This document shows positions 39,672 to 53,185 of a stretch of DNA of 64,000 nt, piece by piece. The notes beneath the pieces were generated by a model that saw only the letters and a program-made list of their open reading frames with translations, had not been told where the DNA came from and did not search any database. Origin of the DNA: Leptolyngbya sp. NIES-2104. Its GTDB lineage: Bacteria; Cyanobacteriota; Cyanobacteriia; Leptolyngbyales; Leptolyngbyaceae. The stretch lies in contig NZ_BBWW01000001.1 in assembly GCF_001485215.1 (NCBI RefSeq), positions 3,844,001 through 3,908,000 on the forward strand, written 5' to 3'. The stretch's first letter is position 1. Every line of letters begins with the position of its first letter. Position numbers and translations under genes: made by a program.

Positions 39672-40504
39672 ACTCGTAACGATCTCCGCATCACCACATC
39701 AGGAACAGTCTGCTCTGTCCAAATTTCCAAAGCTGCCGCGCCTTGTTGGACGAGCATTTCTAAACCGTCGATCGCTTCAATTTCCCGCTGTTGTGCCTGT
39801 TGTAAAAATTTCGTCGGATTTGGCACATAAATCAAGTCGTAAGCGATCGCATTAGGTTTGATCAGATTCGCTTGCTCTTCAGTTAAAGGGGATTGATCGG
39901 AGTTGGGTGACATTCCGATTGGCGTAGTATTGACCACCAAATCCGCACGAGGCAGAAACTCAGAGAGTTGCTCCCAAGTGTGAACTGACAGCGAATCGAG
40001 TGACCAAGATCGAGCAAATTCCTGGATCTTCTCAGCATTGCGTCCGACTACATGAATTTCTGCAAATCCTAACTGATTGCAACCTGCTACAACGGCTCTC
40101 GCGGCTCCACCATTTCCAAGAATAAGCGCGATCGAGGATTTCCAATCTCGCTCTCTAATCGGTGCCATAAATCCAACAATATCCGTATTCGTGCCACACC
40201 AACCGCGATCGCTGTTCCAAACGGTATTCACGGCTCCGATCGCTCTTGCCACATCGGTAATCTCAGATAAGAGCGGCATGATCGTTTGTTTGTGCGGAAT
40301 CGTAACGCTGAAGCCTCGGAGATCGATCGCACGAAAACCCGCGATCGCAGTGTTTAAATCTTCAGGTCGAATGTGAAACGGAACATACGCGAAATCGATT
40401 TGCATTTGAGCGATCGCCGCATTGTGCATGATCGGAGACAAGGAATGTTCGATCGGATCACCAATCACACCCAGCAGCTTTGTTTTACCCGTAATTCGAT
40501 TCAT
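39653..40504 (-). CDS. aroE: Shikimate dehydrogenase
   Basis: The 283-residue enzyme reduces 3-dehydroshikimate to shikimate with NADPH in aromatic synthesis. Substrate motifs are '[14 protein letters not shown]' (residues 15-28) and 'SVTIPHK'. The NADPH-binding part is '[13 protein letters not shown]', in place of the more usual GxGGxA. The start codon lies inside the last part of minE, with a 20-base overlap, so translation is probably coupled. That makes it the third gene of minD-minE-aroE. Confidence 0.94.
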
Positions 40505-40877
40505 TCTTCGGTGGTGCAGGCTTAGCGGGTTCAGTCTTGGGCGGATCTTCGGTTAAAACGGCTTCGGTCAGGGTTAAATCAAGCTGAATCCCATCTTCCG
40601 CAGGCTTATCATCCGTCATTGTCCGAATTCGTCGAATCGGAAGATTGGCGATCAAAGAAGTCGATCGCTGATGATTTTCCAGCGAAAACTCCATCCCTTC
40701 ATCGAGTTCCACATAGCGCGACACCACATCGAGAATTTCCTTTCGCAACTCCTCAACCATATGGGGCGGTAAATCTGCTCGATCGTGTGCCAAGACCAAC
40801 TTGAGCCGACGTTTAACATCCGTGCGGCTATTGTCCACAGTTCGAGAAAATAAGCGATCGAGAAATTCGGTGATCAT
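40485..40877 (-). CDS. minE: Cell division topological specificity factor MinE
   Basis: The 130-residue protein has the MinE start '[12 protein letters not shown]' and the conserved '[20 protein letters not shown]' region. MinE stimulates MinD ATPase and drives the oscillation that places the division site. The C-terminal 45 residues are a longer Pro/Glu/Thr-rich tail than in E. coli MinE (88 residues). I choose the ATG at 40877 over the TTG at 40892. It lies 29 bases downstream of minD and overlaps aroE. Confidence 0.93.
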
Positions 40878-40906
40878 GAGCAACAGATGCAAACAGTGAA
40901 ATGAAT

Positions 40907-41710
40907 TTAATTCTTACCTGAAAATCGACCAAACAATCGAGCAAAGAACCCTTCTTTTGGCGGTTCTAAGTTCATTAAGGGTACCCGTTCTCCTTCCAAA
41001 CGGCGCACAATGTTATCGAAAGCCGTTGCCGCCAGCGAGGGTGTTTCTGATAATACCAGCGGTTCGCCTTTATTCGTCGAAACAATCACTTTCTCATCGT
41101 CCGGAACTACTCCGAGCAGTTGAACCGCCAGGATTTCTTGCACATCTTCGACCGACATCATATCGTTCGCTTGCACCATATTCGGTCGAATCCGATTCAC
41201 AATCAGATTAATCCGTTTAATGTTGTTCGCTTCGAGCAGTCCGATGACCCGATCGCCATCTCGAACCGCTGCAATTTCGGGGGTCGTGACGATGATTGCT
41301 TCTCGTGCGGCAGCGATCGCATTTTGAAAGCCCATCTCAATCCCTGCCGGACAATCGATCAAGATGTACTCATACACTCGTGACAAGGCATTTACCAATT
41401 GTCGCATTTGATCCGGAGTGACGGCTTCTTTAGTGCGATTTTGCGCCGCAGGAAGTAAGACCAAATTTTGGAATCGCTTATCTTTGACTAAAGCTTGTTC
41501 TAACCTGCATTGTCCGGCTAAAACTTCAACCGCGGTGTAGACCACGCGATTTTCTAGCCCTAATAATAAGTCTAAATTTCTCAATCCAAAGTCAGCATCA
41601 ATCACAGCAACTTTACGCCGCCGTTTTGCCAGTGCCATACCGAGGTTTGCGGTCGTGGTGGTTTTGCCGACTCCACCTTTTCCCGAAGTGATAACGATGA
41701 TACGCGCCAT
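40907..41710 (-). CDS. minD: Septum site-determining ATPase MinD
   Basis: The 267-residue deviant Walker ATPase starts '[18 protein letters not shown]', with both lysines of KGGVGKT. It binds the membrane through a C-terminal amphipathic helix ('FFARLFGRF') and recruits MinC and MinE. '[21 protein letters not shown]' (shown in part) is typical. It begins the minD-minE-aroE run. minC lies upstream on the same strand but is split off by 472 bases that contain a mobile element. Confidence 0.96.
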
Positions 41711-42182
41711 TAATAAAAATCCGCCTTGGAGATGAACGGAATATCCTAATTACAGGTTTTATAGGATATCAGAATTCGGAATTTGAAGCGTTCAGAATCT
41801 AGCACGATTTGGAAACGAGATAAAGAAAATTCTCTAAATTCCGGGGTCGATCGCCCACTAGCATAGCGCAGGCAACAATTCGCATTCGTTCTGAGCTACA
41901 AAGCTTTACGGCAGATATGAACGATCGTGACGAATTTCAAATTGAGGATAAGAGAGTCTTTTCGCTTCGATTGCCTGCCGCCCTGAAATGAATTTCGGGC
42001 TAATCGTGGAAAGTCTACTGAAGTAGACTCGGAGCCAACTTGAGATTCTTAGTCCTTTTCAAAGGACTTTCGTCGATTAGCCCGAAATTCCATTTCAGGG
42101 CGGGATATGGCAACGATCGACAACTTTTCAAACATCCTCTAAGACTCATTCCAGAGGGGTTCTTAATTCTGAAAAATACGAT
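41711..42182. other. Intergenic region between minC and minD
   Basis: The 472 bases contain the promoter of minD, the 188-bp MITE-like element at 41952-42139, and a short cctct/agagg hairpin near 42136-42157 just downstream of minC. No gene was seen. The element lies about 40 bases after the minC stop, so it could also end minC transcription. Confidence 0.6.
41952..42139. mobile_element. MITE-like element, copy 1 (188 bp)
   Basis: This is homologous along its whole length to the 208-bp element at 52941-53148. The right terminal repeat is gaggatgtttgaaaagt (read inward); at the left end only GAG is left, after a 20-base internal deletion. It is bounded by TAA on both sides, a 3-bp TNA target duplication. 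Inside are a long inverted repeat around 'gccctgaaat...' and two hairpins (agtctact/agtagact and agtccttt/aaaggact). It encodes no protein. Confidence 0.85.
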
Positions 42183-43088
42183 CTAATCCTCTCTCCGGAT
42201 GACAAAATCTGCTGCTCTCGCGATCCGAATACTGCCTTGCGGTGACACATACGCCACTTCTGGAAAATATTGTGCAGGCGGCGTTTCTGGGGCACGCGCT
42301 ACATAATCCGCAATCCGAATCTGGGTCGGCTCCAATTGCAGCGCCATAATCAAACATTTCGCATTGCCCTTACACCCCGCGTGTGCCACTCCCCGCAGCC
42401 GACCCCAAACGAGAATGTCGCCTTCTGCGATGATCGTACTTCCCGGATTCAGATCGCCCATTACAAGCACGGTTCCGTTGTGGCGAATTTCAGTGCCCGA
42501 TCGTAAAGTCATCTGAATGTAGAGCGGCTCCTCCATTGCGGTTGCAGCTTCCTGCTTCACCACTAACGGATCAGCCGCTGTGATTTGCTCGACTGAATAG
42601 CCCGCTGTTGCCGCGACGACCGCAGTTTGGCGGCGACGAGTGTGGACGGATTTGAGTTGCAGTTGGACATCGGTAAGGGCTTCAGCGATCGCGCTAAGTT
42701 GCCGCGTGTCGAGTAAGCGATCGTCTGAGTTTAGATGCACGATCGTATTCGGTTGCCATTGCCGTTCGCGTCCGGCTAAAAGCTGTTTCAGTTGCTGCCA
42801 AAGTTCTCCCCATGCTAGTGCCACTTTAGAAGTTGCCTCCGATTCGGGCGGTAAGATCAGATGTAGGACTCCCTCTTTGGATTTGAGGCGGACTTGGAGA
42901 TCCTCGATCGCAGTCTTCGGTACATCGGGTGTTTCGAGCGGGGGGAGATCGAGTAAGTTCGCTTCGATATCGGGGCTGGAGACGGGTTCCGGGGTGGTTG
43001 GAGTCGAATCGTTCGAAACGGACGAGACAGAAGTATCAGAAGTCATGCCTTCACTGGGGGCTGCAACGGATAGATCATATTCACTCAT
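42183..43088 (-). CDS. minC: Septum site-determining protein MinC
   Basis: The 301-residue protein ends in the MinC β-helix domain: 'QMTLRSGTEIRHNGTVLVMGDLNPGSTI' (shown in part) and 'GRLRGVAHAG'. It is a division inhibitor carried by MinD. The N-terminal region is longer and more variable than in E. coli, with a Ser/Thr/Glu-rich stretch up to about residue 50. I start at the ATG at 43088 (MSEYDL). The gene is divergent from susA and is separated from minD by the MITE-like element. Confidence 0.92.
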   Translation of the reverse strand: MSEYDLSVAAPSEGMTSDTSVSSVSNDSTPTTPEPVSSPDIEANLLDLPPLETPDVPKTAIEDLQVRLKSKEGVLHLILPPESEATSKVALAWGELWQQLKQLLAGRERQWQPNTIVHLNSDDRLLDTRQLSAIAEALTDVQLQLKSVHTRRRQTAVVAATAGYSVEQITAADPLVVKQEAATAMEEPLYIQMTLRSGTEIRHNGTVLVMGDLNPGSTIIAEGDILVWGRLRGVAHAGCKGNAKCLIMALQLEPTQIRIADYVARAPETPPAQYFPEVAYVSPQGSIRIARAADFVIRRED

Positions 43089-43189
43089 TGGGCGGTTTGC
43101 AACATTGTTTCGATCGACAGACGCGATCCCCAAGTTTTTTTCATTAGGGTGTGATGGCGATTTTCTGACCAATATTACGAGGAGCGGAG

Positions 43190-45589
43190 ATGTCAGACCT
43201 AATTCAAGCAGTTCTAGATAGCGATGAAAAGTCCGATTTACGCAATTTTGCAAGTGTGTTGCGATCGGATGGTAAACAGTATTTTCTCAGAAATGAGATT
43301 TTGCAACTGTTTGAAGAGTTCGCGCAGCAATACAACAAACAAGATTCATTTCGATTGGAAAAACTAATTAGATATGTGCAAGAAATTATCGTCGAAGATC
43401 AAAGTTTATATTTAGTAATTCGTCCGACCATTGCGCGACAAGAGGCGTATCGTCTGTTGGAAGATTTGACGATCGAGCCGATTACGATTCAAGAATTGCT
43501 AGATATTCGCGATCGCTTTGTAAATCACTATCATCCTCAAGATGGTGATGTATTTGAAATTGATTTTGCGTCGTTTTATGATTACTCGCCTGTTCTGCGC
43601 GACCCGAAAAATATTGGAAAAGGCGTAGATTATTTGAATCGCTATTTGTCGAGCCGATTTTTTCAAGATTCAGGAAAAGGACAGGAAACACTGTTTCAAT
43701 TTCTGCAATTGCATCAATATAATGGGGTGCAGCTATTAATTAATGGACGAATTCGATCACCGAAAGAATTGAGCGATCGCGTAAAACAAGCGCTGGGATT
43801 TTTAAGCGATCGAGATCCGAATGAATCTTTTGAATCATTTCGATTTGATCTGCAAAATCTTGGATTTGAACCGGGTTGGGGAAATACAACCGCACGAGTC
43901 AGAGAAACGCTAGAAATTTTAGATCAATTAATCGATTTGCCCGATCACCAAATTTTAGAAGCGTTTGTTTCTCGAATTCCGATGATTTTCCGAGTGGCAA
44001 TTATTTCGCCGCATGGATGGTTTGGACAAGAGGGAGTGTTAGGCAGACCTGATACAGGCGGACAAATTGTTTACATTCTGGATCAGGTCAAAAGTTTAGA
44101 GAAACAATTGCAGGAAGACATTCGGCTGTCTGGATTAAATATAAGTCCGAAAGTCATTGTTTTAACGAGACTGATTCCAAATAGTGATGGAACGCTTTGC
44201 AATCAGAGACTTGAGAAAATTTATGGAACAACAGATGCCTGGATTTTACGAGTTCCATTCCGTGAATTTAATCTAAATTTGACTCAGAATTGGATTTCAC
44301 GATTTGAAATTTGGTCCTATTTGGAGACATTCTCGATCGATGCCGAACACGAACTTCGAGCCGAGTTTCAAGGCAGACCTGATTTAATCATCGGAAATTA
44401 CACAGACGGAAATCTCGTAGCATTTCTACTTTCAAGACGTTTGAAAGTTACATATTGCATTATTGCTCACGCTCTTGAAAAATCGAAATACCTATTTAGT
44501 AATCTTTACTGGCAAGAATCCGAAGAAAAATACCACTTCTCACTGCAATTTACAGCAGATTTGATCGCGATGAACGCTGCAAATTTCATTATCAGCAGCA
44601 CCTATCAGGAAATTGTAGGAACGCCAGAAAGCGTTGGACAATATGAATCTTATAAGTCCTTCACGATGCCCAATTTATATCATGTTGTTAATGGAATCGA
44701 GTTGTTTAGCCCTAAATTTAATGTCGTTCCTCCGGGTGTAAATGAAGCGGTTTATTTCCCCTTTAATCAAACCGAAGAACGATTATTGAACGATCGACAA
44801 CGCCTAGAAAATCTCTTATTCACCGATGAAGATCCAGATTCCATCTTCGGCACACTCGACGATCCAACGAAGCGCCCTTTGTTCTCGATGGCGAGGCTCG
44901 ATCGTATTAAAAATCTCACCGGACTTGCAGAAGCGTACGGAAAAAGCGAAGCGCTTCAATCTCGCTGTAATTTAATCTTGGTGGCTGGAAAGATTCGAGT
45001 TGACGATTCCGATGACTATGAGGAGATTAGTGAGATTGAGAAACTCTACGAAATTATCGATCGATACAATCTCAAAGGCAAAATTCGCTGGCTTGGTGTG
45101 CGACTGCCAAAAGGCGACACCGGAGAAGTCTATCGAGTGATCGCCGATCGACAAGGCATTTTCGTGCAGCCTGCCTTGTTTGAAGCGTTTGGATTGACCA
45201 TTCTCGAGTCGATGCTCACCGGACTGCCAACCTTTGCGACTCGATTCGGAGGTCCACTCGAAATCATCCAAGATAAAGTCAACGGTTTCTACATCAATCC
45301 AACCGATCACGAAGAAGTTGCAGACGTGATTCTGAAATTTTTGGAGCAATGCGATCGCGATCCGAACTATTGGAATGAAATTTCTCGCAAAGGTATCGAT
45401 CGTGTCTACAGCACTTACACCTGGAAGATTCACACAACTCGACTGTTGTCGCTGGCAAAAATCTACGGTTTCTGGAACTACACTTCTCAGGAGAATCGCG
45501 AGGATTTATTGAGATACGTCGAATCGTTGTTCTATCTCCTATACAAACCGAGAGCGCAACAACTATTACAGGAACAAATGCAGCGATAA
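43190..45589 (+). CDS. susA: Sucrose synthase
   Basis: The 799-residue GT4-type enzyme interconverts sucrose + NDP and fructose + NDP-glucose, and mostly cleaves sucrose in cyanobacteria. The N-terminal regulatory half is followed by 'GRPDTGGQIVYILDQVK' near residue 285. The C-terminal GT-B half contains the E-x7-E motif in 'EAFGLTILE' near residue 660. AGGAGCGGA precedes the ATG. It is divergent from minC with 101 bases between. Sucrose metabolism of this type is typical of filamentous cyanobacteria. Confidence 0.95.
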   Translation: MSDLIQAVLDSDEKSDLRNFASVLRSDGKQYFLRNEILQLFEEFAQQYNKQDSFRLEKLIRYVQEIIVEDQSLYLVIRPTIARQEAYRLLEDLTIEPITIQELLDIRDRFVNHYHPQDGDVFEIDFASFYDYSPVLRDPKNIGKGVDYLNRYLSSRFFQDSGKGQETLFQFLQLHQYNGVQLLINGRIRSPKELSDRVKQALGFLSDRDPNESFESFRFDLQNLGFEPGWGNTTARVRETLEILDQLIDLPDHQILEAFVSRIPMIFRVAIISPHGWFGQEGVLGRPDTGGQIVYILDQVKSLEKQLQEDIRLSGLNISPKVIVLTRLIPNSDGTLCNQRLEKIYGTTDAWILRVPFREFNLNLTQNWISRFEIWSYLETFSIDAEHELRAEFQGRPDLIIGNYTDGNLVAFLLSRRLKVTYCIIAHALEKSKYLFSNLYWQESEEKYHFSLQFTADLIAMNAANFIISSTYQEIVGTPESVGQYESYKSFTMPNLYHVVNGIELFSPKFNVVPPGVNEAVYFPFNQTEERLLNDRQRLENLLFTDEDPDSIFGTLDDPTKRPLFSMARLDRIKNLTGLAEAYGKSEALQSRCNLILVAGKIRVDDSDDYEEISEIEKLYEIIDRYNLKGKIRWLGVRLPKGDTGEVYRVIADRQGIFVQPALFEAFGLTILESMLTGLPTFATRFGGPLEIIQDKVNGFYINPTDHEEVADVILKFLEQCDRDPNYWNEISRKGIDRVYSTYTWKIHTTRLLSLAKIYGFWNYTSQENREDLLRYVESLFYLLYKPRAQQLLQEQMQR

Positions 45590-52906: not shown

Positions 52907-52940
52907 CTTAGAAACGGGATATCGCGATCGCTCAACCTCA

Positions 52941-53148
52941 GAGGGTGTTTGAAAAGTATAAAAAGTCTCTTCGCTTCGATTGCCGCCCGCCCTGAAATGG
53001 AATTTCGGGCTAATGGTGGAAAGTCTACTGAAGTAGACTCAGAGCCAGCTTCAGGTTCTTAGTCCATTTCAATGGACTTGCGTCGATTAGCCCGAAATTC
53101 ATTTCAGGGCGGGCTGTGGCAACGAACGACAACTTTTCAAATATTCTC
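52941..53148. mobile_element. MITE-like element, copy 2 (208 bp, intact ends)
   Basis: Left terminal repeat gagggtgtttgaaaagt and right terminal repeat (inward) gagaatatttgaaaagt match at 14 of 17 bases. TCA flanks both sides (52938-52940 and 53149-53151), a 3-bp TNA-type duplication. The end sequence and TNA duplication are those of IS5/IS1031-group elements, so it is likely mobilised by such a transposase. The interior has an arm of about 29 bp around 'gcccgaaatt' and two hairpins. No protein is encoded. Copy 1 lies at 41952-42139. Confidence 0.88.
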
Positions 53149-53185
53149 TCAGACGAATCCGCGTACCCTCGTTTATTGCAGCAGT

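Follow-up and report, generated by a model that had tools for sequence, protein, structure and literature searches.

A probable composite MITE in Leptolyngbya sp. NIES-2104, with IS5-type ends around a four-hairpin cassette related to Y1 transposases

Leptolyngbya sp. NIES-2104 carries, between minC and minD, one of more than a hundred copies of an element that is probably a composite (nested) MITE, in which an outer layer of the IS5 type encloses an inner, Y1-related cassette of four hairpins. The outer layer, with its terminal inverted repeats and TNA target duplications, would be mobilized by a DDE transposase of the IS5 family acting in trans. The inner layer would be a version, without transposase, of an IS200/IS605-like unit with the arrangement [A-H1]-tnpA(Y1, subclass 1.2)-[H2-B], the two layers having presumably come together in one element. 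The IS5 machinery would then have spread the composite through the genome, often onto the TAA or TTAG of stop codons, where the target duplication together with the first G of the element would restore the stop. One such copy would have inserted downstream of minC, with the 20-base loss from its left end following later.

Structure, copies and insertion sites of the element

The window analysed here, a stretch of 64,000 nucleotides of contig NZ_BBWW01000001.1, holds two copies on the plus strand. Copy 1 (41952-42139, 188 bp) is an IS5-type MITE with the four-hairpin cassette inside and the target duplication TAA on its left (41949-41951) and right (42140-42142). Its left terminal repeat is reduced to the remnant GAG (41952-41954, plus strand), after which exactly 20 bases are gone between 41954 and 41955, and its right terminal inverted repeat (42123-42139, plus strand) has no differences from the family consensus. 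Copy 2 (52941-53148) is full length at 208 bp, and its duplication is TCA (52938-52940 and 53149-53151). A sequence-only reading of the window had already placed copy 1 at these limits, recognized its homology to copy 2 and reported the 20-base deletion within its left terminal repeat (188 against 208 bp), all of which our reading of the sequence supports. The TAA that it gave for both sides holds for copy 1; copy 2 is flanked by TCA instead. That the element is small and non-autonomous is upheld by the IS5-type ends, the TNA duplications and the many other copies. Copy 1 itself is likely no longer mobile, because 20 bases of one end are lost.

The genome-wide search with the 208-bp sequence that this reading had proposed returned many further copies. 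In the organism's own genome (G000; 6,386,310 bases in 5 contigs), the query matched at least 40 places on the same strand, 40 of 225 first-look candidates having been scored (best non-self E value, 2e-83). A 21-base hairpin pattern with up to 2 mismatches occurred at 130 places (65+65), compared with 0 for the reversed control; 100 of these places, all exact, were among the matches listed. The copies examined number 102, made up of 98 listed pattern places outside the window, the two copies in the window and two from the 208-bp search. All 102 are distinct and match the repeat profile, with one locus (L193) matching in part only. Both terminal repeats were recognized in 78 of the 102, mostly spaced 207-208 bp apart. 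Some copies are 98-99% identical to one another, so part of the spread is recent. At one locus (L209) two copies of the repeat adjoin, the second of them more divergent (103 bits).

The outer terminal inverted repeats of the composite are GAGGRTGTTTGAAAAGT. Identical 3-bp duplications flank 39 of the 78 two-ended copies, and every one of them is TNA (25 TTA, 12 TAA, 1 TGA and 1 TCA); IS5/IS1031-group elements duplicate TNA. The same genome has 30 PF01609 loci, of which seven are identical 915-bp IS elements. The ends of these seven are identical to the MITE ends at 16 of 17 positions on either side, their duplications read TTA, TAA, TTA, TAA, TGA, TTA and TTA, and their transposase matches the IS5-family model NF033580 with 209.7 bits (cut-off 110). 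The 915-bp IS and the MITE have common sequence at their ends only, and MITEs usually share nothing but their ends with a partner IS. The 208-bp element is an IS5-type MITE, and the likeness of the ends suggests that an IS5 transposase would mobilize it in trans. Like other IS5-family MITEs, it is short and non-coding, has terminal inverted repeats and 3-bp TNA duplications, and is present in copies that far outnumber the autonomous partner; it differs from them in its structured cassette, whose affinity is with a different class of transposase. Nezha, which we take to be a cyanobacterial IS5-family MITE, is likened here by name, not by sequence. At one locus (L091), one of the seven IS5 copies (1444-2358) directly adjoins a MITE copy (2404-2531), and the TAG stop of the upstream ORF is formed at the border. 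Another locus (L089, 1159-2060) holds a 902-bp IS5-like element whose ends, GAGGACGTTTGAGAAGT, are similar to the MITE ends and whose flanks are unequal (TCA and TTA).

The genes around copy 1 lie on the minus strand. The right end of the element is 43 bp from the stop codon of minC (42183-43253; Pfam MinC_C), and its left end is 241 bp from the start of minD (40907-41710); minE is at 40485-40892. The name minD is given from the neighbourhood and the sequence-only reading, the Pfam matches being of the CbiA/ParA type. The element is absent between minC and minD in all three congeners whose adjoining genes were compared (G001, G006 and G007, the last being the genome of L032, FACHB-63), where the gap between the two genes measures 248-251 bp against 476 bp here by the same measure. 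The claim that the element split minC from minD-minE fails on this comparison: because three genomes without the element already have a gap of 248-251 bp, the element widened an existing gap and did not split the genes. Spacing alone was rejected as evidence of insertion, minC-minD gaps in the family ranging from 30 to 517 bp. The comparison of relatives that the sequence-only reading had suggested thus found the element missing from three congeners, but a clean empty site with a single TAA cannot be read at minC-minD, because about 36 extra bases to the right of the element fail to align. The min cluster is partly broken up in the genus, with minC standing beside other genes, and not beside minD, in G002 (L060), G004 (L056) and Leptolyngbya Prado105 (L033).

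Insertion is proven by clean empty sites at two other copies. In the first (L185), the element lies within the TAA stop of pheS (TIGR00468), and the joined flanks align without gaps to five congeners (G001, G003, G004, G006 and G007); with G002 and G005 the alignment is limited to the pheS side. In the second (L136), one congener (G003) aligns without gaps across a natural TAG, and the other congeners give one-sided or separate-piece alignments.

The four-hairpin cassette

The interior of the element, overlooked by the sequence-only reading, is a widely conserved cassette and not filler. It is 129 bp long and consists of four hairpins, which in copy 1 are hairpin A (arm A, 41978-42003), H1 (42012-42029), H2 (42051-42068) and hairpin B (arm B, 42077-42104), all on the plus strand; B is TTAG-tagged and is the inverted partner of A. 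Similar sequences in other genomes have only this inside in common with the element. An alignment of 17 sequences from 14 genomes, five of them IS5-type copies from G000 and G007, shows four local hairpins with 93.3% of 510 cells paired. Changes on both sides of a pair were seen at 16 of the 30 pairs and in 58 cells, compared with 8.1 and 15.8 in shuffles, and 0 of 500 shuffles reached either value; the structure was drawn from one of the 17 sequences, and the test favours the drawn structure against slid versions of it. Further pair types in the 17-sequence alignment showed no excess over shuffles (46/500). Single copies nonetheless fold into a long stem of A with B. This stem was rejected as the conserved structure, 84.4% of its cells being paired against 91-98% for the local hairpins, which are the better conserved form because they are paired more often across genomes.

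A covariance model (R1) matches the cassettes of copy 1 (41977-42105, plus strand; 134 bits, E 3.5e-37, this sequence being among those used to build R1) and copy 2 (52986-53114, plus strand). At E <= 0.001, the E-values of R1 being rough, it also finds the cassette in 59 of the 145 genomes of the class that were searched, and seven of these 59 had supplied sequences to R1; the matches cover 41 of 87 genera and 17 families. In a draw from the whole phylum, 59 of 292 genomes match, and all 59 belong to the same class. Two named plasmids, from Allocoleopsis franciscana PCC 7113 and Nostoc edaphicum CCNP1411, carry the cassette unannotated. HEARO or another known RNA was rejected as its identity, since Rfam gave 0 matches at gathering score in the window; across 10 loci searched at E up to 10 there were 4 matches, all far below gathering. 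One sub-gathering match, MIR4378 (26 of 90 bits), overlies the element in L036. The cassette was not found in the text, figures aside, of the openly licensed papers searched.

Four further types of ends surround the cassette in other genomes. G020 and G010 have the ends CTGATTGACTGACAAA, and 11 of their 18 good-ended copies show 8-9-bp duplications; the ends GGTGTCAACTTAA occur in G130 and G165, with a duplication of at least 9 bp in two of six good copies. The ends GGGCGTGTTTTAAA were found in G011, where TA was seen by eye on either side of five copies, and the ends TAACTGAGATCTTGCACC in five copies from G011, G090 and G026. Inspection by eye of five copies in G153 and G148 revealed no terminal repeats.

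Conservation of the arms and placement at gene ends

We measured constraint as substitutions, deletions and insertion events per site relative to the family consensus over the 102 copies. Per-site change was 2.0% in arm A, 2.8% in arm B and 8.0% in H2 (paired variants included for H2), compared with 12.9-25.8% in the ends, flanks, links and spacer, so that the arms have changed 5-13 times less than the ends, linkers and spacer. H1 was excluded from the conservation claim because the pattern used to list copies selects intact H1. The arms are similarly preserved in 27 copies with decayed ends, where they are changed at 2.1 and 4.1% of sites, as against 30-41% of end sites. Among 47 copies with clean termini, 17 of 138 sites are unlike between the two duplications, a count that omits one copy with three differences, and the arms are changed at 32 of 2538 sites, insertions not counted. 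Since the duplications differ more than the arms, much of the change came after insertion: the duplications altered in place and the arms were retained. Simple gene conversion was rejected as the source of the intact core: the spacer and the links between hairpins have changed as much as the ends, and conversion tracts would therefore need to be less than the 27 bases of an arm in length. The intact arms are most simply explained by selection in place, with palindrome correction and earlier Y1 activity as possible alternatives.

With gene positions taken from simple, crude ORF calls, none of the 102 copies lies inside an ORF of at least 90 aa. Convergent genes border 38 of them, tandem genes 56 and divergent genes 8, compared with 1, 13 and 13, respectively, of the 27 other gaps of at least 100 bp in the same loci. 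Both ends are defined in 74 copies. Of the 88 gene 3' ends that face these copies, 40 fall at -3 to 0 from the element, and 34 of the 74 abut or overlap a stop codon, six of them on both sides. The stop is supplied either by the TAA before the element or by TTA plus the element's first G, giving TAG. Offsets -1 and 0 hold 37 insertions, with 0.61 TTA/TAA sites available per gene end; the following 99 nt hold 34, with 0.0273 such sites per nt. The resulting enrichment at stop codons is about five-fold, an upper estimate given the short gaps, and selection alone could cause it.

These data bear on a rival explanation that we consider possible though unlikely, namely that the cassette is a host 3'-end structure that protects or delimits transcripts on either strand, selection keeping the arms intact in each copy. 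The avoidance of ORFs, the excess between convergent genes and the copies at stop codons are all consistent with it, as are the arms of the 27 decayed-end copies, which are intact though the genome is without an intact Y1 gene. It also agrees with the strong fold of copy 1 RNA, read on the minC-minD strand (-85.4 kcal/mol, z -8.6). However, the same distribution would result if selection removes insertions elsewhere, palindrome correction or past Y1 activity could also keep the arms alike, and a search of 41600-42300 found no U-tract terminator-like site. As modelled, the RNA structure of copy 1 may protect the 3' end of minC or hinder read-through into minD; the ending of minC transcripts or change in minD expression that the sequence-only reading proposed would likewise be possible effects.

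Y1 transposase genes beside the cassette

The reading of the element as a composite MITE draws its inner layer from Y1 transposase genes. A search of 12 genomes with PF01797 gave matches in 11, and the cassette was matched at 6 of the 30 Y1 loci (L312, L313, L314, L315, L329 and L330; one weak, E 0.041). In G130 (L312/L336) and G011 (L313/L348), tnpA lies exactly between one half-cassette of A and H1 and another of H2 and B. The G130 protein, from L312 and picked for its flanking cassette halves, matched 22 of 145 genomes below 1e-15, a threshold set after the gap in the match list was visible; the next best match had an E-value of 9e-11. All 22 proteins of this clade combine Y---Q--HH with [DN]HuH and WQ, a combination absent from all 8 weaker matches and from the other 24 PF01797 loci.

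Of the 22 Y---Q--HH genes, 18 have an R1 match no more than 1.5 kb away, 9 of them on both sides, and four have no cassette match at that distance. The count is 14 of 17 genes without the five genomes that the PF01797 search had already covered. None of the 8 weaker matches has an R1 match within 1.5 kb, and none of the 24 remaining PF01797 Y1 loci has a cassette match. Among genomes with the gene, 20 of 22 carry the cassette, versus 39 of the 123 others (Fisher p 2e-7). The gene is present and the cassette absent in G053 and G054; conversely, no subclass-1.2-like gene was matched at E < 1e-15 in 39 of the 59 genomes with the cassette. In NIES-2104 itself, the single Y1 match is broken by a TGA, and H2 and B stand behind the gene.

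The accessible part of Quentin et al. (2018; PMC6006769) gives Y---Q--HH as the signature of TnpA-Y1 subclass 1.2 of Cyanobacteria and Bacteroidetes, for which it enters 'no' under REP and which it describes as generally without IS200-type terminal structures. Our proteins have in common with that subclass Y---Q--HH, [DN]HuH, WQ, a length of about 145-160 aa, low copy number and occurrence in Cyanobacteria. They differ in the cassettes beside 18 of the 22 genes, and the lack of terminal hairpins and REPs, as stated in that part of the paper, is revised by the present data. Beside the Y1 genes of G020 and G078 (L350 and L353), short hairpin units are repeated next to the gene.

It is improbable that the cassette is instead a REPIN of the canonical kind, a dimer of GTAG REPs that a standard RAYT mobilizes. 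As described in the accessible parts of Bertels and Rainey (2011; PMC3116915) and Di Nocera et al. (2013; PMC3733652), such dimers likewise pair two inverted tagged hairpins across a spacer and occur at gene 3' ends and beside Y1 genes, and the latter text places GTAG-15 dimers of Anabaena variabilis within long palindromes. In the flanks of more distant Y1 genes (L349, L352 and L353), GTAG precedes the hairpin, which could form a bridge to GTAG REPs. Against this, the copies here have TTAG as their tag and two additional hairpins inside, and the Y1 proteins, which pass the IS200/IS605 NCBIfam model (85.7 and 100.4 bits; cut-off 55), stay far below the cut-off of 80 bits for the RAYT model NF047646 (21.0 and 24.5 bits). 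A plain IS5-derived MITE, its palindromic inside a neutral filler left by one internal deletion and its conservation due to recent spread, would fit the ends, the duplications, the partner IS and the near-identity of some copies, but it is very improbable, being contradicted by compensatory changes of the inside across genomes of 17 families, also within other ends, and by arms that have changed so much less than the rest of the element and its duplications.

The composite MITE has likenesses in several known systems. With the REPINs described in the accessible text of PMC3116915 it shares inverted tagged hairpins (A and B) acting as one folding unit, intergenic dispersal, a link to a single-copy-like Y1 transposase, and the possibility of both hairpin and clover folds; it differs from them in the TTAG tag, the four hairpins, the IS200-like rather than RAYT protein, and the spread by IS5-type ends. 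The PATEs of Haloquadratum, as set out in the available part of PMC3119063, are likewise transposase-less derivatives of the IS200/IS605 type with near-terminal palindromes. Ends of a Y1 element without its transposase are found here too, as the half-cassettes around tnpA in G130 and G011 indicate. The present cassette differs from PATEs in its position within MITE ends of the DDE type, with duplications, and in hairpins that covary throughout a bacterial class; PATEs have neither target duplications nor inverted terminal repeats, whereas the composite in NIES-2104 has both, the boundaries of the bare cassette aside. GTAG-15 of A. variabilis, in the accessible portion of PMC3733652, resembles the composite in its hairpin dimers nested in a longer palindrome and in repeat ends that give TAG stops, but that palindrome ends in TATAGGA..., unlike every end type here. 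GTAG-12, GTAG-15 and GTAG-16 were compared by description, not by consensus letters, and may equal part of the Nostocales copies.

We tentatively put forward, as a serious possibility that falls somewhat short of an even chance, that the orphan HUH subclass 1.2 has its missing DNA partner in the cassette. The two would form a cyanobacterial REPIN-like system apart from GTAG REPs and RAYTs, its units being kept by in-place selection at gene 3' ends even after loss of the transposase and repeatedly riding in unrelated DDE MITEs (with TNA, TA and 9-bp duplications). The cassette is a candidate substrate for a transposase subclass described without one, and subclass-1.2 activity is therefore directly assayable. 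The presence of one structured cassette inside elements of several unrelated transposases raises the question of why it was taken up repeatedly, and the more than 100 marked copies per genome, many exactly at stop codons, offer a testbed for the effects of hairpins on cyanobacterial transcript ends. At two loci in other genomes (L345 in G046 and L344 in G145), at least three cassette matches stand in a row beside a subclass-1.2-like gene.
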